A stretch of 64,000 nt of DNA. It comes from Peribacillus frigoritolerans (lineage in GTDB: Bacteria > Bacillota > Bacilli > Bacillales > DSM-1321). The stretch covers positions 4,382,778-4,446,777 of the forward strand of contig NZ_KV440950.1 in assembly GCF_001636405.1 (NCBI RefSeq). The letters run 5' to 3'. The position numbers and the translations under genes are program-made. The first letter of the stretch is position 1, and each line of letters starts with the position of its first letter. Shown here one piece after another: positions 18,485-23,535 of the stretch. The notes under the pieces were generated by a model, which was given only the letters and a program-made list of their open reading frames with translations, was not told the DNA's origin and searched no databases.

Positions 18485-19687
18485 TTATGCTTTCACGGCC
18501 GTTTTATTGTAACCATGAAATTCATCGACGAATTGGAAATCCCTATCCGTCCGACCTGCAAGGATCGTATCTCGGAGCAGAATGCCTGCATCGGTCGTAT
18601 TGTGGATGATTTCCCCCCACATTCTTGCACTTGTTTGAACATTAGCCGTACGTGGAATGCGTTCCTCCTGGTATTCCAAAAATGCCTGTTCAATGTCATT
18701 CCCATGCTTATGGAGCATATCAGACAAATAAGCTGCATCTTCTAAAGCCTGGCAAGCGCCTTGTGCCAAGTATTGAAGCATCGGATGTGCCGCATCGCCC
18801 ATAAGCGTAATTCTTCCTTTTGTCCAATTATCAATTGGTAAACGGTCATACATCGGCCAACGGCGTTGTCTTTGAATGAATGAAATCGCATTCTGAACAA
18901 GCTCACAAGTTCCGGCAAATACACGGTCCATTTCTTCCGGTTTTCCCCATTGATCTGTTTTTTCGTTTTCTTCCGTATATTGAGAACTTTTAAAAACCAC
19001 TACTTGGTTATAAAGTTCTCCCCTTCTAACCGGATATTGAACAAGATGAAGGTCTGGCCCAATCCACATGTATACATCATCTAAATCCCCATGGCTCGTA
19101 ACCTCCTCCATCGGAATCGCTCCCCTGTATGCAACATATTGAGAGCAGACCGGCTGATCTTCCACAAAAAGTTTCCGTGCCTTGGACCATAATCCATCGG
19201 CTCCAATGACAGCAGTTCCTGAATGTTGGTACCCGTTGGCAGAAGTAACCGTCACTTCACCTTCATACTCTACTGTCTCAATAATGGTTTGATTCGTGAC
19301 CAGTTCGATATACGGGTTCTTTTCACAGGCTTCAGCCAATACTTTATGCAAATCGGAACGATGCAAAACAACATACGGAGCTCCATATCTTTCTTTATAA
19401 ACATCACCTAAATCCAAAGCGGAAAGCTCTTTTCCGGAAAAGGCGTCCATCAGAACCAATCTTTTTGGAAATACTGCAATATCATTGATTTTATCCATGA
19501 CACCTAAACGCAGCAATACGTTGGTGGCATTTGCTGCAAGCTGAATCCCTGCACCAATTTCCCCAAATTCGGGAGCTTGTTCTAGGACTTTTACATACTG
19601 TTTTGTTTCTGCGATTCCTAAAGCAGTTGCCAATCCGCCAATTCCCCCACCGATAACGATGAATGGTTTTTTTTCTGTGTTCATCAT
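18485..19687 (-). CDS. FAD-dependent ring hydroxylase, probably 3-hydroxybenzoate 6-monooxygenase
   Basis: Class A flavoprotein monooxygenase that would hydroxylate an aromatic acid to gentisate using NAD(P)H and oxygen. 400 residues. GGGIGG (about residues 13-18) binds the FAD ADP part; the DG motif is IGADGLWSKAR and the GD motif LMGDAAHPMLQYLAQGA. The family also contains salicylate hydroxylases; the gentisate dioxygenase upstream makes 3-hydroxybenzoate (or salicylate via 5-hydroxylation) the likely substrate. ATG at 19687 follows AGGGGGA by a few bases; a TTG just upstream and a second ATG just downstream are also possible. It is last in the catabolic cluster, separated from the dioxygenase gene by 123 bases with a cre-like site. 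Confidence 0.85.
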   Translation of the reverse strand: MMNTEKKPFIVIGGGIGGLATALGIAETKQYVKVLEQAPEFGEIGAGIQLAANATNVLLRLGVMDKINDIAVFPKRLVLMDAFSGKELSALDLGDVYKERYGAPYVVLHRSDLHKVLAEACEKNPYIELVTNQTIIETVEYEGEVTVTSANGYQHSGTAVIGADGLWSKARKLFVEDQPVCSQYVAYRGAIPMEEVTSHGDLDDVYMWIGPDLHLVQYPVRRGELYNQVVVFKSSQYTEENEKTDQWGKPEEMDRVFAGTCELVQNAISFIQRQRRWPMYDRLPIDNWTKGRITLMGDAAHPMLQYLAQGACQALEDAAYLSDMLHKHGNDIEQAFLEYQEERIPRTANVQTSARMWGEIIHNTTDAGILLRDTILAGRTDRDFQFVDEFHGYNKTAVKA

Positions 19688-19737
19688 CAATTCCCCCTAT
19701 ATTAGTTGTTTTAGCCAAAGTTGCGGACCACTCTCAC

Positions 19738-19751
19738 GGTAAGCGTTTTCA
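19738..19751 (-). promoter_or_regulatory. cre-like site upstream of the ring hydroxylase
   Basis: Minus strand TGAAAACGCTTACC matches the CcpA consensus TGNAANCGNTNNCA at all fixed positions but the last. It sits 50 bases before the hydroxylase start, consistent with catabolite repression of aromatic acid use. No clear -35/-10 pair is visible beside it. Confidence 0.55.
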
Positions 19752-19810
19752 TTTGAATGACATTCATCTATTCACTAGTATCTTAGCTGAAGATTCCAAA
19801 CCGATTATTT

Positions 19811-20923
19811 TCATACCAAAACAGGCTTGAATTCACTTTCAACCTTTTGGTACCCATTGTTTGTGTCTAATGCTTGTTGCTGTTCCAAATCGAATCTTTC
19901 CATTATTGGTATGTCGTTTACCGAGAATAAGTAAGAATCCGCTTCTGCAACGTGCTCATGCCATGCCCAATTCGGAACGACGAAATAATCTCCCTTGGAC
20001 CAGTCAAAACGCACTCCATTAATGACCGTATATCCTGATCCTTGGTGCACTTGATAAATCGTGGAATGGGTATGGCGATGGGCTTTCGTATGGAAACCTT
20101 TAGGAAGTTTCTGCATCCATGCCCCCATCGTCGGATTGGCCGTCTGGCCATTTGATGGATTGATATATTCCACGGCAAAACCTTCATATGGATCCGGTTC
20201 GAAATTCATCAATCCTTCTATCGCTGCTTTGGTGCCCTTCCACTTGTAGTTGGCAAGCGGTGCCACTTGTGAATAACGGTCGGATACTGGACGAACCATT
20301 CCGCCTTGATAACGGAGCTCTGAAAAATTATCCGGCCGCATAGGCGTTTCAATCCGATCTGGATATGGTTCAAAGAAAGTGCCGCCTATGGAATAGATGG
20401 TTGGGATATCAAGGGCATCCATCCAAATCATTGGTTTTTCCCCAACATGTCCATGACCATGCCATAAGTTTTTGGGCGTGATCAAAAAATCGCCTTCTTC
20501 CATGAAGATCCTTTCTCCCTGCACGATGGAGTAGGCACCTTCACCATCCGTAATGAAACGAAGTGCACTTTGGGAATGACGGTGGGAAGGGGCCACTTCA
20601 CCTGGCAACAGTAGCTGGACCGCTGCATAAAGCGTTTGTGTTGTCGAAGCCCATCCCCAAGGCTGGCGATAAGTAAGGCCAGGGTTTTGAAAATAAATCG
20701 CCCTGCGCTCCCCGCCTCGGTCAGGTGTGAAGATTTCAGCCGCTTCCATCAATTTTTTTGTCAAAAGCTCTTCTTTCCATAAATAAGCATGCGCATGGGG
20801 TTTAGGTTCATGGTCCATCAGAGCGGGAATGGCTTCCCACAGCGGTCCAAGGTTATACTGCTGAATATCCTTTGTAAAATCTTTTACGATTGTACTATTC
20901 ATGTATTCCGATTTTTCAGCCAT
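19811..20923 (-). CDS. gentisate 1,2-dioxygenase
   Basis: Fe(II) ring-cleaving enzyme turning gentisate and oxygen into maleylpyruvate. 370 residues, a bicupin as in other gentisate dioxygenases. First cupin: H114-R-H116-S with QSALRFITDGEGAY and a third ligand in the LWHGHGH stretch (residues 155-159); second cupin: HTKAHRHTHSTIYQV and WAWHEHVAEAD. The N-terminal GPLWEAIPALMDHEP is a hallmark of the family (as in NagI/SdgD). First cupin carries the iron. Upstream in the same direction lies the DinB-fold gene (30-base gap). Confidence 0.93.
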   Translation of the reverse strand: MAEKSEYMNSTIVKDFTKDIQQYNLGPLWEAIPALMDHEPKPHAHAYLWKEELLTKKLMEAAEIFTPDRGGERRAIYFQNPGLTYRQPWGWASTTQTLYAAVQLLLPGEVAPSHRHSQSALRFITDGEGAYSIVQGERIFMEEGDFLITPKNLWHGHGHVGEKPMIWMDALDIPTIYSIGGTFFEPYPDRIETPMRPDNFSELRYQGGMVRPVSDRYSQVAPLANYKWKGTKAAIEGLMNFEPDPYEGFAVEYINPSNGQTANPTMGAWMQKLPKGFHTKAHRHTHSTIYQVHQGSGYTVINGVRFDWSKGDYFVVPNWAWHEHVAEADSYLFSVNDIPIMERFDLEQQQALDTNNGYQKVESEFKPVLV

Positions 20924-20953
20924 ATTAATCCCTACTTTCTTTTTTATCTTGCC

Positions 20954-21445
20954 TCAATGGATTTTAGAAAGATTTCGCTTAATTTGATCATAATGTCCTG
21001 AAACATGCTCATCGATGAAGTGATCGACTATATAAGAAACTGGTTTGTTTCCGAATTTAGCGAAATTCCGGTGTGGTGATTCTTTGGATAGTGTTTCTTC
21101 ATCTAAATTCCCGAGACCGCTCTCCACTTTATATTTAAGCTCCTCCACTTGCTTCATGACATCATCCACAGCAAGTTTGTCAGTATCGGTAACCGCCGCC
21201 AATCGGGCTGGATCTTGCAATCCACGCCCCCATCCGGCTCCAGGCATCGCTATTACAGTTTCCACTTCACCTAACCAATAAGGAATGGCTTCAGCTAAAT
21301 GGGAAAGTATCTGCATGATTGACCATTCATCCTCTGCCGGTTTAAATCGGATCGTTTCTTCCGGTAGGTTTGCCGTTGTCTCAAGAATATGGTCGATGGA
21401 TCGTTGCACTGATTGGATTGATGTCCCGATTTCCTGATAAGCCAT
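20954..21445 (-). CDS. DinB-fold protein, putative thiol-dependent maleylpyruvate isomerase
   Basis: 163 residues of the DinB superfamily, a four-helix fold with a three-histidine metal site. H49 (LSHLAEAIPYW), then H147 and H151 in DEHVSGHYDQI are the expected ligands. The superfamily contains mycothiol-dependent maleylpyruvate isomerase of actinobacteria and bacillithiol transferases of Bacillus. The gene lies between gentisate dioxygenase and fumarylpyruvate hydrolase, exactly where the isomerase step is needed, and no glutathione- or zeta-type isomerase is present. I infer a bacillithiol-dependent isomerase. Start at ATG 21445: GGGAGGGAG precedes it, and it begins one base after the stop of the upstream gene, suggesting translational coupling. 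Confidence 0.75.
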   Translation of the reverse strand: MAYQEIGTSIQSVQRSIDHILETTANLPEETIRFKPAEDEWSIMQILSHLAEAIPYWLGEVETVIAMPGAGWGRGLQDPARLAAVTDTDKLAVDDVMKQVEELKYKVESGLGNLDEETLSKESPHRNFAKFGNKPVSYIVDHFIDEHVSGHYDQIKRNLSKIH

Positions 21446-21446
21446 T

Positions 21447-22394
21447 TTATTCTCCCTCCCCGACACGTCTCACACGGTTTTCAAGATAACCTATTTTGTC
21501 GATTTCGATTTTGACAACGTCACCATCTTTCAAGAACACTTGTGGATCACGGGCTACTCCTACCCCACCCGGTGTTCCTGTTAGTACGATGTCACCTGGT
21601 TCAAGAGTCATTAAGTTCGATAAGAATTCAACTAGATACTTCACATCGAATACGAAGTTGGAAGTATTCGTTTTTTGGCGTTCTTCACCATTTACCGTTA
21701 ATCGGACATTCAAGCCCGATGGATCGGACAGTTCATCGGAAGTGACTAACCAAGGCCCCATTGGAGCACTTCCTTCAACCGTTTTCCCTTGTAGCCACTC
21801 AAGTGTACGCCGTTGGATATCACGGTAAGTGACATCATTCGCAATTGTATAACCAGCTACATAATCAAGAGCATCTTCTTTTGAAACATTACGTGCCCTT
21901 TGTCCGACAACAAAAGCGAATTCCGCTTCATAATCCAGTTGTTCCGAGATTGGGAAAAACGGTATATCATCCTGGGGACCGATAACTGTATTGGCGAACT
22001 TTGCGAATACTACAGGGAATGGCGGCAGTTCACGGCCCATTTCAGCTATGTGTTCACGGTAATTATGGCCGACACAAATAATTTTGCTTGGCTTTTGGAC
22101 AGGGGCCTCAAGCTTTATATTTTCAATTTCATGTACCAATTGATGTCTGAAGGAATCACGATTGTTAATAGCGTAGTCCGCAGCCTTTTGCGCGATGGAA
22201 AGGCTTTCATTCCCTCCCTGTAAAAACTCCTCCATTGTTGCAGGGACATAAGCGTCAGCAATTTGTTCACTGCGAAGTTTCCCTTCGCTTTGAAGTAGCG
22301 CTTGATAGGCATAGTTCAAGTCAACGACTACATTTTCCGGGTAAATTGCACCGATGCGTTTAAATCCTTGACTGCTGAACGTTACTAATTTCAT
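21447..22394 (-). CDS. fumarylacetoacetate hydrolase family protein, probable fumarylpyruvate hydrolase
   Basis: Would split fumarylpyruvate to fumarate and pyruvate, the last step of the gentisate pathway. 315 residues: an N-terminal cap (1-100) and the FAH catalytic fold from KIICVGHNYREH. Metal ligands E156 and E158 (DYEAEFAFVVG) and D187 (IANDVTYRD) are in place; SAPMGPWLVT and LTGTPGGVG complete the family pattern. ATG at 22394 chosen because the ATG two codons earlier directly abuts AAAGGAGA. First gene of the catabolic operon, divergent from the IclR regulator. Confidence 0.88.
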   Translation of the reverse strand: MKLVTFSSQGFKRIGAIYPENVVVDLNYAYQALLQSEGKLRSEQIADAYVPATMEEFLQGGNESLSIAQKAADYAINNRDSFRHQLVHEIENIKLEAPVQKPSKIICVGHNYREHIAEMGRELPPFPVVFAKFANTVIGPQDDIPFFPISEQLDYEAEFAFVVGQRARNVSKEDALDYVAGYTIANDVTYRDIQRRTLEWLQGKTVEGSAPMGPWLVTSDELSDPSGLNVRLTVNGEERQKTNTSNFVFDVKYLVEFLSNLMTLEPGDIVLTGTPGGVGVARDPQVFLKDGDVVKIEIDKIGYLENRVRRVGEGE

Positions 22395-22776
22395 ATTCAT
22401 TCTCCTTTATTAATCTGGATTTTTTTAAAACCTCTTTTTGATGCCAACATCCTAATTATGCTGGGCTCGCTTCGCAAACCAGAATTTGAATGGTTGTACA
22501 CCTTATTAATTTCACTAATAGATAACTTTGTTCACTATTTATATAAATGATAACTTAATTTTCGGAATATTGTCAAGAAAGTATTGCAAATTTTTGTGCA
22601 AATGTTATCATCTACACCATTATCAGTACTGCGGAATCAAAAAGTTCGTTATTCATTTAATAGGAACGTATATTGATAGCTTCAAGCATCCGGCCGTTTT
22701 TCTGCTGATTTTCATGTATATTTTACATATTCTGATATACTAGACCTAAATTAAAACAGATTAGGGAGATTGATTT
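22395..22776. promoter_or_regulatory. divergent control region of the gentisate cluster
   Basis: 382 AT-rich bases between the divergent hydrolase and regulator genes. It must hold both promoters and probably the IclR-type operator. Direct GATAACTT (two copies near 22520 and 22548) and a partial dyad TTCGTTATT...AATAGGAA near 22645 are visible, but I cannot name the operator with confidence. Confidence 0.5.
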
Positions 22777-23535
22777 ATGGAAATCGTAAAATCCGGTTCG
22801 ACGATTCAATCATTACAAATAGGGATGAGCATCATAGATTTACTTGCTTCCCACAGAACTCCTTTAAGATTCTCTGATATTCAGGAATTAACGGAGATAA
22901 CGAAAAGTAACCTCTATAAGTATTTGAATACTTTGACTCAACTAGAGTTACTATATCGCGATAAGACAACCGGTATGTATCACCTTGGGAGCAAATTGAT
23001 TCAATACGGAATGGCAGCGATAGGAAATGAGGATATAACGAGCAGAATAACTCCTTATTTACAGGAAATCAGTCATCATACTTCCTGCACGGTCCTTTTT
23101 TCCGTTTGGACATATGATGGACCAATCACGGCAAAAATATGGAATTCCAATCAAAACTTAAACATTGGGGCACAGTTAGGTACACGACTTCCGCCATCAT
23201 CCTCTTCCGGAAAGGTATTCACTGTATTTCAGGATCCTTCCTTGACGGCGGAATGGATTGAAAAAGATCGTAATGTTACGGGCTCGTTCCTTAATGAAAC
23301 GAATGAATATGATGAAATTCGGACATACAAAATAGCTTTTGCCAAAGAGCCTCTTGTACCATCCGTTTCCTCCATGTCCATTCCGGTTTTTAATTATAAT
23401 TCGGAATTGTTGGGAGCAATCACTGCCGTTGGGTTCACCGAAAACATTCCTGATCATTATGAAGATCCTTTAAGCGTCTATTTAAGGAAAAGCTGTTTGG
23501 AAATCTCGAATATATTCGGTTATTCCGCTGAATAG
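22777..23535 (+). CDS. IclR family transcriptional regulator of the gentisate cluster
   Basis: 252 residues. N-terminal winged helix (residues 8-70: SLQIGMSIIDLLASH, FSDIQELTEITKSNLYKYLNTL) and C-terminal effector-binding domain (from about 80: LQEISHHTSCTVLFSVW, LPPSSSSGKVF, SVSSMSIPVFNYNSELLGAITAVG), the IclR layout at usual length. Divergent from the catabolic genes, so it most likely controls them in response to an aromatic intermediate. ATG with AGGGAG eight bases upstream; terminator follows. Confidence 0.88.
   Translation: MEIVKSGSTIQSLQIGMSIIDLLASHRTPLRFSDIQELTEITKSNLYKYLNTLTQLELLYRDKTTGMYHLGSKLIQYGMAAIGNEDITSRITPYLQEISHHTSCTVLFSVWTYDGPITAKIWNSNQNLNIGAQLGTRLPPSSSSGKVFTVFQDPSLTAEWIEKDRNVTGSFLNETNEYDEIRTYKIAFAKEPLVPSVSSMSIPVFNYNSELLGAITAVGFTENIPDHYEDPLSVYLRKSCLEISNIFGYSAE

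Follow-up and report, generated by a model that had tools for sequence, protein, structure and literature searches.

A predicted BagL-type, DinB-fold maleylpyruvate isomerase in a four-gene gentisate operon of Peribacillus frigoritolerans

The stretch of DNA analysed here, called the window below, comprises 64,000 nucleotides of Peribacillus frigoritolerans (assembly GCF_001636405.1, contig NZ_KV440950.1, positions 4,382,778 to 4,446,777 of the forward strand). We focused on a four-gene operon on its minus strand, with genes for an FAA-family hydrolase, a DinB-fold protein, a gentisate dioxygenase and a 3-hydroxybenzoate 6-hydroxylase type enzyme. The original prediction, made from the letters of the window, had seen these genes together, and all four are indeed open reading frames on that strand. 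The features of the locus, with functions as predicted and positions counted from the first nucleotide of the window, are as follows:

21447..22394, minus strand: fumarylpyruvate hydrolase (FAA family), operon gene 1, bagK-like (PF01557, 251.4 bits)
20954..21445, minus strand: DinB-fold maleylpyruvate isomerase, BagL-type, 163 amino acids (PF12867, DinB_2, 39.6 bits)
19811..20923, minus strand: gentisate 1,2-dioxygenase (bicupin), bagI-like (TIGR02272, 317.5 bits, E 8e-95, under the cut-off of 442.1)
18485..19690, minus strand: flavin adenine dinucleotide (FAD) hydroxylase of the 3-hydroxybenzoate 6-monooxygenase type, bagX-like (NF006021, 414.6 bits, E 4e-124, under the cut-off of 459)
22777..23535, plus strand: divergent IclR/PcaR-type regulator, probable operon regulator (PF09339 and PF01614; TIGR02431, 68.7 bits, under the cut-off)
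22547..22576, minus strand: candidate promoter-like site upstream of the operon, matching 11 of 12 consensus bases with a spacer of 18

The open reading frame of the hydrolase spans 21447-22400, and we consider its second ATG, at 22394 and 7 nucleotides behind an AGGAG, a better start than the one at 22400. The DinB frame is listed from a GTG at 21466; the ATG at 21445 matches the 163-residue length of most close homologues and lies 1 nucleotide past the hydrolase stop TAA (21449-21447), so that the two genes are adjacent and do not overlap. The hydroxylase frame opens with TTG at 19690, with ATG codons at 19687 and 19684. The spacing of the four genes suggests a single transcript. The site at 22547..22576 is a candidate only, as the promoter scan was overall no richer than shuffled sequence (15 sites versus a mean of 13.5). 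Like the hydroxylase and the dioxygenase, the hydrolase scores under the curated NCBIfam cut-offs (its best match, to a model of another reaction, reaches 212.3 bits versus 500), and the exact substrates of these enzymes are therefore deduced from the gene set as a whole.

We suggest, with a probability of about 0.93, that the operon serves the breakdown of 3-hydroxybenzoate via gentisate and that its DinB-fold protein is a maleylpyruvate isomerase from the clade of BagL. The predicted pathway would run through the hydroxylase, the ring-cleaving dioxygenase, the isomerase and the hydrolase. BagL is the name that we take to belong to protein P0148 of Paenibacillus sp. NyZ101, which in UniRef is called "Cysteine dependent-maleylpyruvate isomerase". 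This protein was retrieved with a profile built on seven relatives, encoded in Paenibacillus, Brevibacillus and Ammoniphilus loci. It is likewise a member of DinB_2, and it aligns with the window protein over the full length with 43% identity and 66% positives in 161 columns; the closest named homologues of the window protein are from Peribacillus. In a maximum-likelihood tree, built without a 95-residue fragment and without the actinobacterial mycothiol enzymes and the Bst proteins of B. subtilis, 24 DinB proteins from gentisate loci, P0148 among them, form a single group with 96/98 support, separate from 17 paralogues of the host genome. Several paralogues sit on very long branches, and thus the branching order among them is unsure. 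The 2012 report on strain NyZ101 is said to name the genes bagKLIX, to give L-cysteine, cysteinylglycine or glutathione as cofactors, and to put the Km for L-cysteine at about 15 mM. According to an excerpt of PMC6379261, the letters of the nag genes stand for fumarylpyruvate hydrolase (K), maleylpyruvate isomerase (L), gentisate dioxygenase (I) and 3-hydroxybenzoate 6-monooxygenase (X). Applied to bagKLIX, they would give the same gene order as in the window.

The association of the DinB gene with the rest of the pathway is strongly conserved. A pattern scan over one genome per species (84,980 species), which reaches relatives carrying one of two peptide patterns, yielded 55 loci, some truncated where a contig ends. 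In all 55 the DinB gene is immediately preceded by the hydrolase gene (gap of at most 93 bases between matches), in 53 it is followed by the dioxygenase gene (gap of at most 303), and in 33 a hydroxylase gene falls within the stretch covered. The recurrence of the hydrolase-DinB pair in every locus argues that the arrangement is not due to chance, and the linkage is conserved in records named as Bacillaceae genera, Paenibacillus, Alicyclobacillus and Staphylococcus. Seven further stretches (L086-L092) differ in gene order, with the trio still together or within a few kilobases; in some, the DinB gene is about 3.4 kb from the hydrolase gene. In one of them, from a draft assembly (L090:4264-5598, minus strand, genome G254), hydrolase and DinB are encoded in a single continuous reading frame of 445 amino acids, which may be a real gene fusion or the result of misassembly. 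That the partnership survives rearrangement, and perhaps fusion, argues for a shared task of the two proteins.

Some of these records deserve mention in their own right. Two named Staphylococcus equorum (L017 and L026) carry a complete operon with hydroxylase and regulator. A third, titled Arthrobacter beigongshangensis (L023, genome G018), holds a Bacillota-type gentisate cluster together with a match to bshC, a marker of bacillithiol synthesis, so that its name or assembly is probably wrong. At L088:4114-5423 (minus strand, genome G414) the match to the hydrolase covers only 240 residues and the DinB frame starts with a piece resembling a hydrolase C-terminus; the hydrolase copy there may thus be interrupted.

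The window protein is predicted to adopt the four-helix DinB fold, as one helical bundle modelled with a predicted local distance difference test score (pLDDT) of 95.7. A search of PDB sequences with the single protein gave no match at E <= 0.001; a profile search at E <= 1 returned 2rd9 (E 0.0023) and two CadR sequences (E 0.79 and 0.89). The three-His site noted in the original prediction was borne out by the alignments, in which the putative ligands H49, H147 and H151 do not vary in any of 47 aligned family members or of the 25 members of the isomerase clade. Also invariant across the 25 are W41, E52, G73, R74, R81, A84, V85, H142, Q154 and R157. As a simple string, G-R...R-L occurs in 22 of the 25 clade members and in none of 18 host paralogues. 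A stricter W-G-R form of the motif was tried and rejected, having failed in five far clade members; F-G-R is found in two of these five and in the fused L090, and no simple string fits three members. The alignment nevertheless places G73, R74 and R81 in all 25, including the members without a string; the far members L089, L091 and L092, which lack the simple G-R...R-L, thus retain the aligned G and R residues. The host genome has 20 DinB_2 matches, and one paralogue, at C1:4290564-4291011, matches in two neighbouring frames and is probably an interrupted gene.

These residues allow a mechanism to be proposed. A low-molecular-weight thiol would be activated by a metal, presumably bound by H49, H147 and H151, and would add to maleylpyruvate at its cis double bond; what is then a single bond could rotate, and departure of the thiol would give fumarylpyruvate, the substrate of the hydrolase. 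The invariant R74, R81 and R157 are likely to hold the substrate carboxylates. Such an identification would close the gap in the gentisate pathway of this genome. Many entries now called "DinB family protein" in Bacillus relatives, Paenibacillus, Brevibacillus, Alicyclobacillus and Staphylococcus equorum could then be renamed as maleylpyruvate isomerases.

The thiol could be L-cysteine, as published, or bacillithiol. Use of bacillithiol by the window isomerase, as put forward in the original prediction, is possible, a fair if unproven idea: an excerpt of PMC5815605 states that DinB-fold transferases of B. subtilis use bacillithiol and not cysteine or coenzyme A, and bshC is present in 49 of 49 carrier genomes (the host and those of 48 of the 55 loci), Paenibacillus included. 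Among literature on bacillithiol with maleylpyruvate isomerase or gentisate, no title or opening of an abstract proposes a bacillithiol-dependent isomerase. We regard it as a serious contender, at somewhat under even odds, that the DinB protein is an isomerase whose natural thiol is bacillithiol, L-cysteine being only a stand-in in vitro; this is a variant of the isomerase assignment, and our confidences in the two overlap. It is countered by the title of the paper on the published enzyme, which calls it L-cysteine-dependent. The genomic evidence is also less telling than it looks. In the class sample, bshC occurs in 18 of 18 carriers of the DinB clade versus 333 of 398 genomes overall (Fisher p 0.037 if related genomes are treated as independent), so that its co-occurrence with the cluster hardly discriminates and does no more than allow bacillithiol; moreover, bshC is a proxy, the only one of bshA, bshB and bshC covered by the search. 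We would give much the same tentative credit to a broader proposal, in which the BagL-type family depends physiologically on bacillithiol throughout Bacilli, the label of L-cysteine dependence stems from which thiols could be assayed, and R74, R81 and R157 of the single-domain enzyme take the place of the second domain found in the mycothiol enzyme. If true, bacillithiol would join glutathione, mycothiol and cysteine as thiols serving the gentisate pathway.

Across the class, the DinB gene and the dioxygenase largely travel together. We searched the 398 genomes of this sample for the DinB clade at E <= 1e-15, scoring at most nine candidates per genome, and for dioxygenase homologues at E <= 1e-60. 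The former was found in 18 genomes and the latter in 23, comprising all 18 with the DinB clade versus 5 of the 380 without it. Dioxygenase bit scores are at least 514 in the 18 genomes and below 500 in the five, a dividing line that was drawn after the data had been seen. In a phylum sample of 299 genomes the host was the sole match, with no carrier outside the class.

Several observations weigh against the assignment of the DinB protein as the isomerase of this pathway. Only 43% of its aligned residues are identical to those of BagL. Relatedness among the loci and among the genomes means that they are not independent; ten loci belong to close relatives of the host, and a single genome contributes three. 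Two loci (L024 and L037) have the hydrolase-DinB pair without a neighbouring dioxygenase; in their genomes the dioxygenase is on another contig. Finally, five of the 398 genomes (L093-L097; genomes G068, G220, G303, G419 and G428) pair dioxygenase-like and hydrolase-like genes without a DinB isomerase, with no DinB match near the cluster or, at E <= 1e-15, elsewhere in the genome. A related ring-cleavage pathway thus seems to run without it, and these five clusters, which may use direct hydrolysis or act on another substrate, are the main indication that such pathways do not always require a DinB isomerase. Second copies of clusters of this kind are L098, L099 and L052:3040-5006. Among the five, L095 additionally encodes a thioesterase-like protein (50.1 bits, under the cut-off, in one family scan of eight proteins) and, by eye, has genes resembling those of acyl-CoA enzymes.

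Gentisate pathways in which maleylpyruvate is hydrolysed directly are known. Applied to the window, such a route would have the hydrolase cleave maleylpyruvate itself and the DinB protein act as a detoxifying S-transferase for reactive intermediates, a reading in favour of which the many DinB-fold genes of the host and the DinB-less clusters can be cited. However, the hydrolases of those clusters are only distantly related to that of the window (35.8-44.6% identity over 214-229 residues); their dioxygenases are 48-51% identical to that of the window. The window-type hydrolase, by contrast, is tied to the DinB gene in all 55 loci, and the DinB protein groups with a named maleylpyruvate isomerase. 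We therefore consider direct hydrolysis in the window very improbable. That the DinB gene is a bystander, in the operon by accident, could be argued from how common DinB-fold genes are in the host, but the linkage kept across genera, the fused frame and a residue pattern seen in 22 of 25 clade members versus 0 of 18 host paralogues leave this idea with practically no credit.

The DinB protein was also compared with other families. An isomerase of the glutathione S-transferase type (zeta, maiA) was rejected, with no TIGR01262 match in the window protein or in any of the 49 carrier genomes. The label of a mycothiol-type enzyme (MDMPI) was likewise rejected: the window protein has no match to PF11716 (MDMPI_N) at E <= 0.001, and the second, C-terminal domain is absent. 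Among seven other clade members scanned, MDMPI_N gave three weak matches, of which that of L089 exceeds the cut-off (29 bits versus 24.2). It also matches in 30 of the 49 carrier genomes, 26 over the cut-off, with a maximum of 40.6 bits. We take these as probable cross-hits to other DinB-fold proteins, because the control Bacillus subtilis matches too and the match in the host is its best DinB_2 gene.

The mycothiol-dependent isomerase of Corynebacterium glutamicum (PDB 2nsf and 2nsg) has a chain of 240 residues, of which residues 2-155 align, whereas the window protein, with 163 amino acids, has no remainder for a second domain; the metal site is His-Glu-His in the mycothiol-dependent enzyme, and probably His-His-His here. 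The model of the bacillithiol S-transferase BstA/YfiT (NF009807) gives the window protein 20.8 bits versus a cut-off of 160, and the G-R...R-L string, absent from the host paralogues, sets the isomerase clade apart from BstA/YfiT and its relatives. With BagL, in contrast, the window protein has in common the Pfam family, the full-length alignment, the site residues and the tree group; the hosts differ, and for Peribacillus we infer the activity from sequence. The original prediction had proposed the DinB protein both as the missing isomerase and as a solution of low-GC Firmicutes to this step. The first part is strongly supported by the identity to P0148, the shared clade and the gene linkage; the second was anticipated by the Paenibacillus enzyme, which is in print as the L-cysteine-dependent maleylpyruvate isomerase of strain NyZ101, by the title of the paper (Liu and Zhou 2012, J Bacteriol 194:3987; cited in PMC8562490 and PMC4879640). 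A DinB-type isomerase is thus a low-GC Gram-positive solution known since 2012 from Paenibacillus, and the window gene joins this known kind.
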